From: Roseiflexus sp.
GTDB taxonomy: Bacteria; Chloroflexota; Chloroflexia; Chloroflexales; Roseiflexaceae
Direction: 5' to 3'
Assembly: GCA_025062325.1 (NCBI GenBank)
Contig: JANXAL010000016.1
Span: 1 to 47,644 of the forward strand
DNA: 47,644 bases
A program made the translations under genes and the position numbers. Under the pieces are notes generated by a model. The model saw only the letters and a program-made list of their open reading frames with translations. It was not told the DNA's origin and did no database searches. The stretch's first letter is position 1; the number at the start of each line of letters is the position of its first letter. Shown here piece by piece: positions 4,350-32,927 of this stretch.

Positions 4350-5654
4350 ATGCGCTGGACGACCATCTTTCGTCTGGGGTTAATCAATGTCGCCGTTGCA
4401 CTGACGGCAGTTCCAATCGAAAGCACGCTCAACCGGATCATGATCAGTGAGCTGCGGCTGCCTGCCTCGCTCGTGGCGCTGCTGATTGCGTTGCCCTACG
4501 CTTTTTCGCCGGTACAGATCTGGATCGGATCCTTCTCGGATCGTCGCCCGTTGCTGGGACTGCGACGCACACCCTATACGATCATTGGACTGCTGTTATG
4601 TGCCGGAGGATCGGCGCTTTCGCCGACGGCCGCGTTTGCCATGGCAGAGAACTTCTGGCTGGGATTGCCGCTTGGGTTGCTGGCATTCGGTGCATGGGGG
4701 ATGGGATTCAACTTTGCGACGGTGTCGTATCTGTCGCTGGCGACGGATCTTTCCGGCGAAGAATACCGTGCCCGCACTGTCGGCGTCATGTGGTTCATGC
4801 TGATCATAGGGGTCATTATTGCTGGCGTGGGTCTTTCGCGCATGCTGCGCGACTACACGCCAGCGGCGCTGTTTACAGCATTCTACGTGGTGTGCGGCAT
4901 TGCACTGCTGATCGGCGTTGCCGCGCTCTGGGGCCTTGAGTCGCGCAACGTTGAACCGACGACTTCTGAGCGACGCAATTTCAGGCAAACGGTCGCTACC
5001 GTGGTGGGAACGCCGCAGGCCCGCCTGTTCTTCATCTACCTGGTGCTGCTACTGATAGCAATTCTAGGGCAAGACGTGCTGCTCGAACCGTTCGCTGCCG
5101 ATGTATTTGGCATGCCGGTCGAGGTTACGACGCGCTACACATCGATCTGGGGCGCAGCGCTGTTGGTTGGACTTTTGGCGACAAGTCCGCTGGCGCGGCG
5201 CCGCGGGAAGCCTTTCGCCGCTGCCGTTGGCGGGTCGCTAGTGGCGCTTGGCCTAGGATTGATTGCGCTGAGCGGCATCCTGGGTATGCCGGTCATCTTC
5301 ACGCCGAGCCTGATTATTTTCGGCTTTGGCAGCGGTGTTTCGACGGCAGCCAATCTGGCGCTCATGCTCGATATGACGATACCAGGGCAGATTGGCGCGT
5401 TTGTGGGAGCATGGGGAGTCGCTAACTCCATGGCGCGCCTGCTGGGAACTGTGCTGAGCGGCGTGACCCGCGATGTCCTGACTGATCTGTTCGATGACCG
5501 CATGCCCGGATATGTCATCGTCTTCCTGCTCCAGGCGGCTGCGATGGTGATATCGCTGGCGCTGCTGCCGCGGATCAGCACGGCGCGCTTCCGCCGCGAA
5601 GCGGCGCCCTCAACGCGAGAGCTTGTTGCACTTGCTGGCGAATCGCAGGGGTGA
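4350..5654 (+). CDS. PucC/BCD-family MFS protein (bacteriochlorophyll delivery or antenna assembly)
   Basis: A 434-residue, roughly 12-span inner-membrane protein of the major facilitator superfamily. The region at about 48-75, including LPYAFSPVQIWIGSFSDR and LGLRRTPY, is characteristic of the PucC/LhaA/Bch2 (BCD) branch, whose members help assemble light-harvesting complexes in phototrophs. The acidic and aromatic residues typical of drug-efflux MFS proteins are not evident. AGGA lies nine bases before the ATG. This gene is the clearest phototrophy link in the window. Its specific partner (LH1-type antenna or chlorosome-like component) cannot be told, and it is not next to other photosynthesis genes. 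Confidence 0.8.
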   Translation: MRWTTIFRLGLINVAVALTAVPIESTLNRIMISELRLPASLVALLIALPYAFSPVQIWIGSFSDRRPLLGLRRTPYTIIGLLLCAGGSALSPTAAFAMAENFWLGLPLGLLAFGAWGMGFNFATVSYLSLATDLSGEEYRARTVGVMWFMLIIGVIIAGVGLSRMLRDYTPAALFTAFYVVCGIALLIGVAALWGLESRNVEPTTSERRNFRQTVATVVGTPQARLFFIYLVLLLIAILGQDVLLEPFAADVFGMPVEVTTRYTSIWGAALLVGLLATSPLARRRGKPFAAAVGGSLVALGLGLIALSGILGMPVIFTPSLIIFGFGSGVSTAANLALMLDMTIPGQIGAFVGAWGVANSMARLLGTVLSGVTRDVLTDLFDDRMPGYVIVFLLQAAAMVISLALLPRISTARFRREAAPSTRELVALAGESQG

Positions 5655-6390
5655 TCAGGGGGGGAAAGGGAAGCTCTCACGTGGAGGCTTTTCAGGACGC
5701 GAAGCGGATGTAACGGATTCGGACTCCCTTCCCCCTCATCCCCCTGCCCCTTTCTCCCACCCTCTCAGGTGGAAGCTTTTTCGGGTGCGAAGTAGGCTTG
5801 CCGCGTCCTGACGCCCTTTTCCCCCTCATCCCCCTACCCCTTTCTCTCCTTGTGGGAGAAGGGGGAGACTCACCAGTGTCGAGTTTTTGGGGTGTGATGG
5901 ATGTTTTTCTGCGTTTTGACGATCTTTTTCCCCCTTATCCCCCCTACCCCCTTTTCCCACCAGGGGAGAAGGGGGAGCTAGGGCGTCCTGTTGCCCGGAG
6001 CAGGTGATGCAACGTGAGGGCTTGCCGGAAACATCCACCCTTGTGAGCCCCCCCGTCCCCTCATCCCCTTCTCCCACAAGGGGAGAAGGGGGCGTTAGGG
6101 CGCCCCACTGCCTGAAGCGGTCGATGCAACAGAGGGCGGGCCAAAAAACCTACCCTTGTGAGCGGCCCCCTTCTCCCACAGGGGGAGAAGGGGGAGGGTG
6201 CGCACCCTGATGCTCAAAACGAGTGATGCACCATAAAGGCTTGCCAAAAAACCTACACTTGTGAGCCTCCCCCAGCCCCCTTCTCCCACACTGCGGAGAG
6301 AAGGGGGGAGATGAGGCGTCCTGACGCCCAAAATGGGCATATAACGCAGAAACGCACCGGAAAACCTGACCATTGTAGGAGAAAGGCTGC
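5655..6390. repeat. Tandem array of ~110-bp hairpin repeats
   Basis: After two or three partial copies (5665-5860), four degenerate copies follow head to tail at about 5941-6047, 6048-6161, 6162-6265 and 6266-6379. Each holds a C/T-rich lead, a hairpin core (TTCTCCCACAAGGGGAGAA or a variant), a 'GGCGTCCTGACGCC'-like stretch, a 'GATGCAAC' motif and an end like CCTACCCTTGTGAG. Copies differ in the stem but keep pairing, which suggests that structure is maintained. The open frames across the array look spurious. 6390-6600 holds nothing recognisable. Confidence 0.8.
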
Positions 6391-6603
6391 AGGGCGAACA
6401 GGAGCAGGCAGGAGCGCACCCTATGAGCGCCACCACAGGTGTGGGTTGAGGATGTTATGACACTGCAGTGCAGTGTCGCCAGGTTGCGGCGCAGCATCGC
6501 TGCGTGCTACGGAATGGATGTCGAGTGTGTGATGCTGTGAATTTGGAATGCGACATACGACGATAGGGCGTTACAGATTGTGCGACTAGAAAGGGATGCA
6601 TGG

Positions 6604-6632
6604 TTGATCGCCGACATCGTCTGACATATAAT
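6604..6632 (+). promoter_or_regulatory. Sigma-70-type promoter of the DUF262 gene
   Basis: TTGATC and TATAAT are separated by exactly 17 bases. Transcription would start near 6640 and give a leader of about 80 bases before the ATG at 6722. This is one of the best promoter matches in the window and supports expression of this solitary gene. Confidence 0.65.
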
Positions 6633-6721
6633 GTGCGGAAATACGGTCCAACCCTCTCTGCAGCGCGCTCCAGTGCAGCGCCACGCAGACCTTTAATCCG
6701 GCATAAGCGCCGAGGCGTCAC

Positions 6722-8518
6722 ATGGCCACACAGCGCTACTCTGTCACCCCTTACCCGATTGAAACCTTGCTAACATGGGTGAAGTCCGGAGAGATTGCGA
6801 TTCCCGAAATCCAACGCCCTTTCGTCTGGGATGCAACAAAAGTCCGCAATCTGCTCGACTCGCTCTATCGGGGCTATCCCGTCGGCTATCTAATCACCTG
6901 GCGCAATCCAACGGTCAGACTTAAGGATGGCACACTTTCCGCCGGTAAACGCATCCTGATAGATGGTCAGCAGCGGATGACGGCGTTGATGGCTTCACTG
7001 CTTGGCTACGAGGTGCTTACCAAGGATTACGAGACGGTACGTATTCAAATTGCGTTTCATCCTCAAGAGGAGCGCTTTGAGGTTGTCAACTCCGCCATTC
7101 GGAAAGATGTTGCCTGGTTGCCAGACATTGCCGAGATTTTTGCGCCGCATACAAGCCTCTTCCAGCTCGTTGACGAGTATTGCACCAGAAACCCCGATGT
7201 TTCCCGAGACTCCATATTCAAGACGATTGAGAAACTCCGAAAGATCCTCAATAATCATGTCGGGGTTATTGAGCTGAACGACGACCTCGATATTGAAACA
7301 GTTACAGAGATTTTCATCCGGGTGAACTCGGCAGGCGTTGAACTTTCGCAGGCGGATTTCGCTATGTCAAAGATCGCGGTTAATGAAAAGTATGGCGGCA
7401 ACTTATTGCGCAAAGCGATCGACTACTTTTGTCACGCTGCAGTAACCCCAGAATTTTTATCGCAAATCGAAAGAAAAGATAAAGAATTCGCCCAATCCGA
7501 ATTCTTACCAAAGATGCGGTGGCTCAAAGAGACAAACGATGATCTCTACGACCCCACATACACTGATATGCTCAGGGTGGCTTTTACCTCTGAGTTTCGT
7601 CGCGGAAGGTTGCAGGATCTAGTGGCGCTGCTATCGGGGCGTAATTTTGAGACCAGGCAGTTCGAGGACGCTATTGCTGAAGAATCATTCGCGCTTCTTA
7701 AGCAAGGCGTCCTCAACTTTATGAACGAAACTAACTTTAAGCGTTTTGTTATGATTCTTCGTTCCGCGGGTTTTGTAACTAATGATCTTATTGGTGGCCG
7801 AAATGCGGTTAATTTTGCCTATATCCTTTACTTGCGCGGTAGAGCCGAAGGCGTCGCTGCAGCCGATCTTGAGCGTTTAGTAAGGCGATGGTATGTCATG
7901 TCCACCCTGCGCGGACGTTATATTGGCAACCCCGAGACAGCATTCGATTTGGATATGCGCCAGATAGAGGCAAGAGGTCTCATAAATTATACGAATATCG
8001 TTATTGAAAATGAGTTGCCGGAAAGCTTCTGGAATGGACTTCTTCCACAACTAATGGATACCTCGTCACCACAAAGTCCCTACTTTCTTGCTTATCAGGC
8101 GGCACAGGTGAAGCTCGGAGACAAAGGGTTTTTGTCTCGTGATATTACAGTGCTAGATTTGCTGATGAATCGGGTAGATGTTCATCATGTGTATCCAAAG
8201 AAATATCTGAAGAGCATAGGGTTGCCGCGCAGTCGATATAACCAGATTGCCAATTTTGTACTGGCGCAGAGTGAAATTAACATTGCTATTGGAGACAAAC
8301 CTCCTGAGCAATACTTCAAGGAGCTTGCTGAACAATGTCGTGGCGGGAAACGAAAGTATGGCGCCATCACTGATGAGCAAGAACTCCGTGCCAACTTGCG
8401 GATGCACTGTATCCCGGAAGTGATGCTTGATGGACCGGCGCCCACGTATGAAGCCTTTCTGGAGGCCCGGCGAAAACTGATGGCGCAGAAGATCAAGACC
8501 TGGTTTGAGACGCTGTAG
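6722..8518 (+). CDS. GmrSD-like DUF262/HNH protein (predicted anti-phage nuclease)
   Basis: A 598-residue protein with an N-terminal DUF262 (GmrS/ParB-Srx-like) domain and a C-terminal HNH-type region. The N-terminus has [10 protein letters not shown] (27-36) and the hallmark DGQQRMT (81-87), a nucleotide-hydrolysis motif of the family. Near residue 487, HHVYPKKYL followed by a distal asparagine-rich stretch looks like a DUF1524/HNH nuclease motif. Known relatives include the Type IV enzyme GmrSD, which cleaves glucosylated phage DNA, and SspE, which acts with phosphorothioate marking. Neither partner system is nearby, so a stand-alone nuclease against modified phage DNA is the inference. It is visibly more AT-rich than its neighbours and is flanked by repeats, which fits horizontal gain. 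GAGG lies seven bases before the ATG. Confidence 0.8.
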
Positions 8519-28226: not shown

Positions 28227-29987
28227 TCACTTCGTGCTGTCGGTGAACCCGCCAAGATGCCTATTTTTTGATACCCATATGTAACGTAGACGCAGTGCGA
28301 TCGGCAGTCCGACGTCGTGGTCGAGCATGTCCATCTGCGCATCGTCAAGTTCCGCAAAGCGGCTATCAAGCGCAATCTGTCCATCGCGCATTAGAACGAC
28401 GCGATCCAGCGCCTCATAGCAGAAATCAAGGTCGTGACTGACGACCAGCACGCTACGCTGCTGCGCCGCAAGGTTGTTGATAAGCTGCACCAGCAAGCCA
28501 ATGCTGGCATTGTCCAGACCCGCCGTCGGCTCATCGAGCACAAGCAGCGCTGTATCCATTGCTACGACTGCGGCGATGGCGACGAGACGACGGCGAGCAA
28601 GCGGCAAATCATAGGGATGTTCATTGACGACGTCGCGCAGGTCCAGCGCGTCGATAGCGGCTTCGGTGAGCGCATTCACCTTTTCAGGCGAAAAACCCAG
28701 GTTTCGCGGTCCAAAACGGATCTCATCACGAACGGTGCGGGCAAACAGTTGATTGCGCACGTCCTGGAACACGATGCCGACGTGCCGGGCGCAACGGGCG
28801 ACAGTGGTCATCCGCGTATCAACGCCGCCCACGAGCGCACGCCCGCGTGATGGGCGCAACAGACCGTTCAGGTGACGCACCAGCGTGCTCTTTCCTGCGC
28901 CGTTTCGTCCCACCAGCGCAATACGTTCGCCGCGCCGCACCGTCAGCGATACGCCACGGAGCGCCTCGACGCCGGTCGGATACGTGAAATGCACCGCATC
29001 GAGCGTCACGATTGGTTCAGCGGCTGGCGTCGTCCTCTGCGAACCGTCCGTGTCACTTTCTGGTTGAGTCGCCAGGGAACGCAGTGCACGAAGTTGTTCA
29101 TTCGCAGCGCCCTGATCTGCGGTTGCGGGGCGTAATCCCGCCGCAAGGTCGGTGATTGTGATCGGCAAGGGATGGTCCGGCGCCCAGCATCCTTCAGCGC
29201 GCGCCTGGACTGCTATCCGTGTCGGACGGGGCCAACCGATGCCATACGCGCACAGTCGGGGATCGGTCAGCACCTCGGCAGGCGCGCCGTCAGCGAGGAT
29301 AGCGCCGCGATCCAGCGCCACCACCCGTTCCGCCACCTCGGCGACCCAATCTAGGCGATGCTCGGCGACAAGAATGATCATTCCCTGCCGACTGAGCGAC
29401 CGTAGCACATCGGCAAGTTCCGCCATCGCTGGCGGATCAAGCTGCATGGTCGGCTCATCAAGCGCCAGAATCGGCGGGCGCATTGCCAGCACAGCCGCAA
29501 TCACCAGGCGCTGTTGCTGACCGCCGGACAGCGCATAAGGCGAACGGTCGCGCAGGTGATCGATGCCGAGCGCCTTGAGCGCCCATTCAATGCGCTCGAT
29601 CATCTCTGCACGCGGCACGCCAAGGTTTTCCAGCCCAAATGCCACCTCGTCGTAGACCGTGAACCGCGCTCCAGAGATCTGACTGAAAGCGTCGCTGCCC
29701 ACCAAGGCGACATGCCGCACCAGTTCGGCGATTGGATGAGTCGCTATCGATAATCCGTCCACAAACGCATCACCGTCGAGGCGACCTCGAAAAAAATGCG
29801 GCACAAACCCGGCGCAGAGCGCGCAGAGCGTACTTTTGCCTGCGCCTGCCCTGCCAATAACGGCGCAGATCTGACCGGCAGGAATCGCAAGCGTCACGTC
29901 GCGCAGCGCTGGTTCAGTTGCGCCTGCGTAGGTGAAGGTCACATGACGCAACGTAACAGGATGGTGCGGTTGCGAGGCACGATCCAT
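28227..29987 (-). CDS. ECF transporter energizing ATPase, two fused ABC domains
   Basis: A 586-residue protein with two ABC ATPase modules that power an energy-coupling-factor (vitamin-type) importer with the T and S components upstream. Module 1 has GRAGAGKST, LSGGQQQR and LALDEPT. Module 2 has GRNGAGKST and LVLDEPTAGLD, but its signature is degenerate (YDLPLARRRLVA in place of LSGGQ), a pattern I associate with YkoD-like fused subunits. The ATG at 29987 starts one base after the stop of the upstream gene (TGAAATG), so translation is probably coupled. Longer starts at 30011 or 30050 would overlap that gene. Confidence 0.88.
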   Translation of the reverse strand: MDRASQPHHPVTLRHVTFTYAGATEPALRDVTLAIPAGQICAVIGRAGAGKSTLCALCAGFVPHFFRGRLDGDAFVDGLSIATHPIAELVRHVALVGSDAFSQISGARFTVYDEVAFGLENLGVPRAEMIERIEWALKALGIDHLRDRSPYALSGGQQQRLVIAAVLAMRPPILALDEPTMQLDPPAMAELADVLRSLSRQGMIILVAEHRLDWVAEVAERVVALDRGAILADGAPAEVLTDPRLCAYGIGWPRPTRIAVQARAEGCWAPDHPLPITITDLAAGLRPATADQGAANEQLRALRSLATQPESDTDGSQRTTPAAEPIVTLDAVHFTYPTGVEALRGVSLTVRRGERIALVGRNGAGKSTLVRHLNGLLRPSRGRALVGGVDTRMTTVARCARHVGIVFQDVRNQLFARTVRDEIRFGPRNLGFSPEKVNALTEAAIDALDLRDVVNEHPYDLPLARRRLVAIAAVVAMDTALLVLDEPTAGLDNASIGLLVQLINNLAAQQRSVLVVSHDLDFCYEALDRVVLMRDGQIALDSRFAELDDAQMDMLDHDVGLPIALRLRYIWVSKNRHLGGFTDSTK

Positions 29988-29988
29988 T

Positions 29989-31532
29989 TCACCATCTCGC
30001 AGCGGGCGCATATTTCCATGACTGGGACCGAAGCCACTCACAGCGTACAAAGATCACCATCCTGTCCTCACGGAACGCTTCACACCAGCCAGGAGTCTGT
30101 GAGAGACGTTGTGCTAATGCTGGTTGATTCCAGAGGTCGATCAGGAGATGGGAAATATTCCATCGCTCAATCACGACCAGGCTTTCAGGTCCTCCCTGTG
30201 CGATGGTAAAGTATTCCTCCCAGATCGACAGCGGAAAGAGCTCAGCGCGCAAATCGGCGAACACCTGTTTGTGAGGAAGCCGCCAGATCGTATAACTGGA
30301 AAACGACATATCCGTCCAGAAACGTCCCGGAATGTCGTGCTGCGCCAGCCATTCAGTCGCTGCAACTGGCGTATTGCTGTCGAGCAACAGCCGATAGGGG
30401 CCAGCGGTCGCAAAATTTGCCTCTGCTGCGGAACCGAGCAGACGGATGGGCAGAAACCAGGGCAATGTTCCAACTACCAGTGTTGCCAGCAGAGCAATGA
30501 TCACCGCACTCATCGCTCCGGGCAAAGGCGCATGGCGACGTTCTGGCAGGAGAAGCGCCAGACGTTCAGCCGGGAGCGGGGTGAGCAGAAGTGTGAACCA
30601 CACGACGTAGCGAACCCCATCGAAACCAAGCCAGCCCAATCCGCAATACCAGAACAGATCAACACTGGAAGGGCGTTGCCTGCCAAGCGCCAGGAGCACC
30701 GCTAATCCCAGCACTAGGACAAAAAACCAGAAGCCTGCATCAAACAGGTTCAGGCTTGCCGTCGGAGGCGGCCATTCGATAAACCAGCGCTGCAGCGATT
30801 CATTTGACAGCATGGCAGCCAGATAAACGTTAATCCGAGGGGGTTGATGCATGTCGCCAGCATCGTTGCGCCTGTCGCCAGGGCAAGATCGCGTATCAAG
30901 CGTTCAGGCGGTCTCGCTACATCAGCACGCACCGTATCGCACCACATCCCGATCCATGCCAACATCAGCAGGATCGGCGCCAGCACAAACGATCCATGGG
31001 TATTAGCCCAAATAATAGTGATCATCGGCAGGATGCCAAGCCAGCGTCGCCTGAGCCGACCGGCGAGGACCTCGCCGAGCAGTGCTGCAAACGATGCCCC
31101 CAGTACAAACGCATATGTTTGCGGTCGAAGCGTCCAGTTGTCCCAACCGGCCATCATTGCGCCCAGGAGCGCCAATCCAGTGGCTATGCCATGCCGACTG
31201 CGCCGGAATGCGTGCCAGGCAATGATTGTGGAGGCGCCAACGATCGACAGGGTCCGACTGAGTGAAAGGAATGGCACATCGCCGAGTCGGTACAACCCAT
31301 ACATCAGGATCTCGCTTAACCAGCTCTGATAGACATAGGGAGCGTTGAACGGCAACGTGTATGCCCAGCGATTCGTAGTCAACAGGCTGCCCTCTTGCAC
31401 CATTGTGCGCCCGGCTGCCATATGCCACCAGAGGTCATTGGCCGGGAGCGGCGCCAGGCTGAGAAACAGCCAACTGAGCGCCAGCACGCTCACTATCCAG
31501 ATATGGTCAATGCTGAGGCGGATGCCGGACAT
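29989..31532 (-). pseudogene. Frameshifted GT-C-like polytopic membrane protein inside the ECF operon
   Basis: Two overlapping frames make one protein of roughly 510 residues. The first (from ATG 31532) begins with a membrane span, then PANDLWWHMAAGRTMVQEG and many spans up to ATCINPLG near 30845. The second continues in another frame with INVYLAAMLSNESLQRWFIEW and ends with a soluble domain (FWTDMSFSSYTIWRLP...). Adding one base near a run of five C (about 30838-30842) restores INPLG-INVYLAAML. The DLWWH-x-x-x-G motif and topology resemble GT-C-type glycosyltransferases or flippase-like proteins. Its start is two bases after the T-component stop and its end one base before the ATPase start, so it was designed as an operon member. 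It is now a pseudogene, a programmed frameshift, or a sequence error. Confidence 0.75.
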
Positions 31533-31534
31533 TG

Positions 31535-32320
31535 TTATCCTAATGCGAGCGTTGCTACACGCCACACGATCAACGCTCCCAGCGCCGTTAGCATCACGAT
31601 CCGCGCCATACGTTCAGCAGGCGGATCGGGAATGTCGCGCACCCAGGTTTTGGGACCCGGCGCGTTGAAGGCGCGCGCCTCGAGCGCCATAGCGCGCTCC
31701 TCTGCTTCAATAAGCGCACCAACAATCAAGGGACTGATCAACGGCAGCAGGCCGCGGATGCGTTGCAGGATATTCCCTTCCGTCTCCAATCCGCGTGCGC
31801 GTTGCGCCTCCGCTACCCGTGCAGCGCGCTCAGTGACAGCGGGGATGAGTTGCAACGCTGTCAGCAACATATATCCGACCGAGCGCGGCATGCCGCGCTG
31901 GATCAGCGCCTGGACCAACGTGCCGGGGTGGGTTGTTTGAAACACCAACAATGGCGCTCCGGCGACAACCAGCAGCCGGCTGCCGATATCGAGCGCAAAC
32001 TGAATCCCGGCGCGACGGAACAGGAGCGGCCCGACCGCAACAGTGGCCGGATCGGCTGTTGGGAAGAACAACCCCTGCACCAGCGCCAGCGAGATCAGCA
32101 CTGGCAGCAGCGTCTTCAGCAGCGTATCGAGGAAGCGGCGCACTACCAGCGACGCGAGCGCCAGCGGAAGCAGCACGCCTCCCAGGAGCGCCGCTCCCGT
32201 TAGCGGCGCGGGGAGCAGAAACGTCGCTCCGATAAGCAACAACGCGCCAGTTATTTTCGTCAGCGGGTTCAACCGCTGGAGAAAACCGGCGCGCTCAATA
32301 AACAGACCAGTGCGTTGCAC
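31535..32320 (-). CDS. ECF transporter transmembrane (T) component, CbiQ/EcfT family
   Basis: A 261-residue integral membrane scaffold that couples the ATPase to the substrate-binding S component. It has about five membrane spans and the two coupling-helix motifs typical of the family, here EAQRARGLE near 165 and MALEARAFN near 215, which contact the ATPases. The gene lies 13 bases after the S-component gene and is followed two bases later by the GT-C-like gene. The substrate cannot be read from the T component. Confidence 0.88.
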   Translation of the reverse strand: MQRTGLFIERAGFLQRLNPLTKITGALLLIGATFLLPAPLTGAALLGGVLLPLALASLVVRRFLDTLLKTLLPVLISLALVQGLFFPTADPATVAVGPLLFRRAGIQFALDIGSRLLVVAGAPLLVFQTTHPGTLVQALIQRGMPRSVGYMLLTALQLIPAVTERAARVAEAQRARGLETEGNILQRIRGLLPLISPLIVGALIEAEERAMALEARAFNAPGPKTWVRDIPDPPAERMARIVMLTALGALIVWRVATLALG

Positions 32321-32333
32321 AGCGGCGAAAGAG

Positions 32334-32927
32334 CTAATGTTCGGTTGCGCCGAAGCGCGCGAGCAGGCGTTTCGGCAGTGCGTAAATAATCATCCACACA
32401 ATCAGGTATGTGATCGTCTTATCAAGCGGGTCGGAAACGGCGCCCTGCATAAACGAAGCGCCCAACACGCTGGCGCCAAGGTTCTGGAACATCGCCACCA
32501 GCACATCGGTACCCCCGCCCGTGACGCCTCCAAAGACATACGTTGCGATTGGCGCCGAGATAGCTGCGGCAACTATACCCGTGATCACCCCCGCAAGCGC
32601 CATTTTCCACCATGCGTGTAGTGCACCATACTGGCGGGCATATCCTGCGATTAGACCGATTACCGCTGCCACTGCGGCGAACGGCAGCGCCGAAGGCGCC
32701 AACGTCAATCCCCAGATGACATTGGCAAGCAAGCCGGTGATCGCTCCCGCTAGCGGACCAAGCAGCACGCCAACCAGCACTGTGCCGATCGAGTCAAGAT
32801 AGATTGGTAGTTTCAGAACGCTCTGCACCAAATGACCCAGCGCCACATTGATGGCAATAGCGATGGGAATCAGCGCAAGCGCCGTGCTGCTTAACTCGCC
32901 GCGGCGCGATGTTGTCGACGTAGTCAT
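32334..32927 (-). CDS. ECF transporter substrate-binding (S) component, substrate unknown
   Basis: A 197-residue membrane protein with about six spans: INVALGHLVQSVLKLPIYLD near 25-45, then GTVLVGVLLGPLAGAITGLL, a helix pair around 85-130, and C-terminal LIVWMIIYALPKRLL. The length and glycine-rich helices fit ECF S components. It is the first gene of the operon, preceded by AAGGAG close to the ATG and by a good promoter at 33023-33050. No riboswitch was recognised in the leader, so the ligand (thiamine-, queuosine- or other vitamin-like) is open. Confidence 0.8.
   Translation of the reverse strand: MTTSTTSRRGELSSTALALIPIAIAINVALGHLVQSVLKLPIYLDSIGTVLVGVLLGPLAGAITGLLANVIWGLTLAPSALPFAAVAAVIGLIAGYARQYGALHAWWKMALAGVITGIVAAAISAPIATYVFGGVTGGGTDVLVAMFQNLGASVLGASFMQGAVSDPLDKTITYLIVWMIIYALPKRLLARFGATEH

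Follow-up and report, generated by a model that had tools for sequence, protein, structure and literature searches.

X, a gene that lies between the T and A genes of an energy-coupling factor (ECF) transporter operon in Roseiflexus sp., is best explained as a GT-C-type passenger gene that was inserted once into the S-T-A operon of the genus ancestor, is not needed by the transporter and has repeatedly been lost, a reading to which we assign a probability of roughly 0.8. Because most relatives carry no X at this junction, X has the look of a common passenger gene in the course of being lost and not of a new transporter part, and we regard the finding as ordinary turnover of passenger genes in an operon rather than as an ECF novelty. 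The window, by which we mean the whole stretch of 47,644 nucleotides that was analysed, is one entire contig (C3) of the 4.7 Mb, 143-contig draft genome of this organism (G000).

The operon in the window and the break in X

The operon is encoded on the minus strand in the order S, T, X (broken), A, as an earlier sequence-only reading of this DNA had described (Table 1). Its account of the junctions was also borne out: X starts two nucleotides past the T stop (ATG at 31532, T stop at 31535-31537) and ends one nucleotide ahead of a potential A start, with the X-frame stop at 29989-29991 and an ATG at 29987 in the ATPase frame. In Roseiflexus sp. isolate 629F.7 (G001; JAGHYV010000016.1), the gap between T and X is 6 nt and possible A starts lie closely downstream of X; since the A start region differs among species, the exact abutment of X and A is not conserved.

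Table 1 Features of the ECF operon in the window
Feature	Coordinates	Strand	Evidence
S component (ECF_trnsprt)	32334..32927	-	Pfam PF12822, 33.4 bits (cut-off 30.7)
T component (CbiQ family)	31535..32320	-	Pfam PF02361, 80.5 bits
X, N-terminal piece (GT-C-like membrane protein), first open frame	30750..31532	-	63% over 231 aa to L067:4263-5816
X, C-terminal piece, second frame	29989..30852	-	71% over 266 aa to L067:4263-5816
Lesion in X (approximate placement)	30829..30848	-	7-nt deficit against each of the 36 aligned family members
A, single-chain ATPase carrying two ABC domains (uncertain start codon)	28227..29987	-	two ABC_tran stretches, PF00005

The NCBIfam model nearest to S is of the CD3073 type (NF045596; 136.8 bits, under its cut-off of 180), and an Rfam scan of the window for a riboswitch that might hint at the ECF substrate gave 0 hits. 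As a side observation, the S genes of six other family members (L056 in G006, L048 in G014, L051 in G008, L052 in G011, L057 in G024 and L058 in G012) are open frames of ~270-300 aa, with an extra ~60-80 residues in the middle of the protein compared with the 197-aa S of the window; in the full-length reading of the L056 protein this extra stretch looks hydrophobic.

The two pieces of X cover residues 16-246 and 249-514 of an intact orthologue of 517 aa in G001 (L067:4263-5816). As they match this one protein consecutively and without overlap, they represent a single broken gene and not a chance arrangement. Residues beyond about 237 of the N-terminal piece are in the wrong frame, and the C-terminal piece is homologous from about position 30834 onward. 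All 36 aligned family proteins, the orthologue included, are ungapped and equally spaced from an N-P-x-G motif through a conserved E-W, and compared with every one of them X in the window lacks 7 nt immediately after the N-P-x-G motif. The sequence-only reading had attributed the break to one base lost near a run of five C. That X is broken, with the net change of frame then described, holds; what is missing, however, is 7 nt beside the run. We considered the loss of a single C and ruled it out, given the position of the shortfall and the nature of the run: because the five C are ordinary codons of the conserved N-P-L, both a lost C and a slippery run fail as explanations, and no slippery-run lesion common to the relatives was found. 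As assembled, the G000 copy of X is inactivated by a 7-nt out-of-frame shortening.

In other respects, the broken copy is well preserved. Across 29 family members, 37 alignment columns are invariant, of which the X of the window keeps 36, along with 15 of 17 nearly invariant residues, and the single invariant residue that has changed sits at the edge of the lesion. This indicates that constraint on the gene lasted until very recent times, and that the lesion is either young or a fault of the assembly. In relative-rate comparisons between the window and G001 copies, only one of ten exceeded a chi2 of 3.84 (7.04, for the N-terminal half with L079) and the next highest value (3.77) pointed in the opposite direction, so that there is no clear acceleration of the window copy.

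If the break were a sequencing or assembly error, X would be intact in the living organism and only the last step of our explanation would be touched. The presence of just one lesion in a gene that keeps nearly all its invariant residues, and the draft state of the genome, are compatible with such an error. A 7-nt shortfall that adjoins a homopolymer instead of lying inside it does not, however, match the typical error profile of short reads, and decay of X is seen independently in a second species (G003, below), which makes an error unlikely in our judgement.

A putative GT-C-type glycosyltransferase

Neither piece of X matched a Pfam or NCBIfam model at E values up to 1, a sequence profile of X gave 0 hits against the PDB at E up to 10, and no member of the X family reached the Pfam PMT_2 family (PF13231) on its own. 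We used profile-profile comparison to assess the likeness to GT-C enzymes proposed in the sequence-only reading. With hhalign, the X alignment matched PMT_2 members at 87.5% over 173 N-terminal columns, a moderate relationship to a known GT-C family, and matched DUF2079 at 60% over only 38 C-terminal columns. The PMT_2 reference proteins were taken from 20 relatives; for every reference ORF in these comparisons the strand was picked by hydropathy, and ORFs outside 300-1000 aa were dropped. As controls, PMT_2 against DUF2079 (positive) gave 96.7%, and X against MFS gave 0.6%, although the latter is weakened by at least one MFS row that looks misread. An AlphaFold model of X built from three rows (the orthologue and the two window pieces) was too poor to use (pLDDT 41, pTM 0.24). 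The proposed likeness is thus upheld by the PMT_2 profile match and gains no support from the structure model, Pfam, NCBIfam or the PDB.

The invariant columns include D46-x-W-W-H (numbered on the intact orthologue). D46 follows the first predicted helix, within the region aligned to the PMT_2 profile, and is kept in the window copy; it would be placed in an external loop. In the GT-C superfamily, the first external loop bears a conserved acidic residue.

Genes of the X clade (>=50% identity) were found in 10 of the 158 genomes of the class that were searched, counting the broken window copy and G001, and the next matches fall to 35-40%. Outside the ECF operon the neighbours of X differ from locus to locus: a PMT_2-type protein and a methyltransferase (L077), an acyltransferase (L078), GT2 and GT4 glycosyltransferases (L079), an ABC ATPase (L080), a ketoacyl synthase (L114) and a transporter permease (L116). 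Several of these loci are glycosyltransferase neighbourhoods and none, judged by eye, is an ECF operon. Two X-clade copies, L115:4332-5857 (G070) and L116:1295-2814 (G067), both in draft genomes, appear split into two frames.

More distant paralogues of X have a GT2 gene, which we take to be DPM1-like, no more than about 1.5 kb away at 33 of 44 loci (a count in which some genomes appear twice), whereas 0 of 13 X-clade loci adjoin such a gene, with GT2 assigned by Pfam. In the window genome itself (G000:C62), two adjacent paralogues (L082:3965-5602 and 5481-7001) stand beside a DPM1-like GT2; this type of cluster is widely kept in the order, and the family was matched by no model in Pfam or NCBIfam.

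Mycobacterial GT-C mannosyltransferases are described in PMC3485146 as using polyprenyl-phosphate sugars. Together with the PMT_2 profile match and the paralogues beside DPM1-like GT2 genes, this makes a GT-C-type transferase likely, and X is most likely a stand-alone membrane glycosyltransferase of this type. Its product would probably take a sugar from a polyprenyl-phosphate carrier and attach it to a putative acceptor outside the cytoplasm. No description of X was seen in the listed entries on the energy-coupling factor in Roseiflexus (PMC3766115) or on GT-C enzymes.

Occurrence and history of X at the T/A junction

We surveyed 18 loci that allowed T as well as A to be located (G000-G005, G009, G026, G032, G035, G038, G006, G008, G011, G012, G014, G018 and G024; in the last seven, only the ends of the matches were used to assess the T-A gap). 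L050 (G016), on which no A was seen, and the other S-bearing loci fall outside this count. X stands between T and A in two of the 18, broken in G000 and intact in G001, and is absent from the junction in the other 16, one of which (G003) holds a relic. In three species of the same genus (G002, G004 and G005) and in the outgroup genus (G009), T and A are close together and X was not found between them, nor was it found there in eleven further S-T-A loci of the order. The idea that X was built into the operon hence applies to the window and a single relative: among the 18 loci the order S-T-X-A recurs at one other only, and homologous operons without X are the norm, an outcome that the sequence-only reading had itself named as refuting its proposal.

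In G003 (L071), the gap between T and A is about 420 nt (about 5029-5450) and contains a stretch, in the correct orientation, in which 34 of 39 nt are identical to the 3' end of X and which corresponds to its last codons (E 2e-9; a score reached by 0 of 1000 dinucleotide shuffles). A search for relics in G002, G004, G005 and G009 returned only chance-level matches of 9-11 nt. Beside the relic, the G003 gap also holds a G+C-rich, REP-like repeat whose core occurs three times there and was not found in the window or in the fetched loci of G001, G002, G004 and G005.

A species tree built from six linked genes, with G009 as the outside member, gave ((G000,(G002,G005)),G004),(G001,G003), with support of 99-100 for the main splits and a weak order among G000, G002 and G005 (86 DNA, 52 protein). 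By this topology, each main clade has a single species that carries X. Synonymous differences between G000 and G001 (pS) are 0.71 and 0.75 for the N- and C-terminal halves of X, compared with 0.68, 0.55 and 0.61 for S, T and A. With X at least as divergent as its flanks it was not swapped recently, and we rejected a recent transfer between G000 and G001 on this comparison, in which synonymous sites are near saturation. Both halves of the window X group as sisters with the G001 copy (support 0.99 and 1.0). The simplest account is a single insertion before the genus radiated, followed by at least three losses and the break in G000.

Had the G000 and G001 lineages each acquired X independently at this junction, the slightly higher pS of X relative to its flanks and the lack of X or any relic in G002, G004 and G005 would fit. 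Set against this, the trees of both halves pair the two copies as sisters inside the X clade, the G003 relic demonstrates that loss occurs, and one junction would have had to be hit twice, making this history quite improbable.

We also asked whether X belongs to the transporter, as the sequence-only reading implied. X matched none of the S, T or A families in Pfam or NCBIfam, homologous operons mostly do without it and its relatives adjoin unrelated genes; judged on these sequence comparisons, X is outside the ECF machine. The proposal that it modifies or flips a lipid-linked form of the substrate finds no support either, with 16 of 18 operons devoid of X. One might still picture X as a functional accessory in a subset of Roseiflexus, given the near-abutting junctions in G000, the identical position in 629F.7 and, by the tree, retention of that position since the genus ancestor. 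Not only do those 16 operons speak against such a role, but G032, G011 and G006 carry X elsewhere in genomes that also possess an X-less S-T-A operon, and, of the three species in this genus that hold any X, two have it broken or as a relic; we think such a role very unlikely. We give slightly less credence still to the idea that, in Roseiflexus lineages where X is intact, it works with the ECF module in handling a substrate that is lipid-linked or glycosylated, its loss marking a switch in what is imported. Least credible is that programmed frameshifting at CCCCC, as had been suggested, yields full-length X or that the two frames are two cooperating chains: the second frame does have an ATG at 30852 near the lesion and both pieces remain conserved, but the C run consists of conserved codons, the relatives are in one frame there, and what X lacks in comparison with each of the 36 members is 7 nt next to the run.

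On the passenger-gene reading, X would have entered once between T and A in the genus ancestor, as synteny, trees and the relic best suggest, and would be transcribed along with the ECF operon. It would give nothing essential to the transporter, the X-less operon being the norm and presumably functional. It would have been deleted in several species, of which one retains the relic, and in G000 it is inactivated, on the assembled sequence, by the 7-nt shortening; premature termination in the broken gene may slightly change the expression of A. The sequence-only reading's idea of reduced ATPase translation through an early end of coupling found no support here; the start of A is not conserved among species, and homologous operons do without X. 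As a point against a pure passenger, the long persistence of X at close junctions, from the ancestor of the genus down to G001, could reflect some benefit of co-expression.

Comparison with known systems

Intact, frameshifted, relic and empty states of X are all visible within one genus, and a gene that seemed well built in appears to be a lineage-specific passenger between insertion and deletion; the case is a caution against inferring function from where a gene sits in the operon of one genome. The family is conserved and GT-C-like, was caught here by no Pfam or NCBIfam model, and would usefully be named. X resembles GT-C enzymes of the PMT_2 type (PF13231) in being a hydrophobic membrane protein with an invariant Asp 46 past its first predicted helix and in having distant paralogues that neighbour DPM1-like GT2 genes, but differs in that its family falls below PF13231 detection and its own clade lacks the GT2 link. 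With ECF transporters it shares its place, embedded in a standard S-T-A operon, yet it is none of the three components, is lacking in the majority of homologous operons and has relatives without ECF neighbours. The X of Roseiflexus sp. 629F.7 has the identical position and gene order, and differs in being intact where that of G000 is broken.
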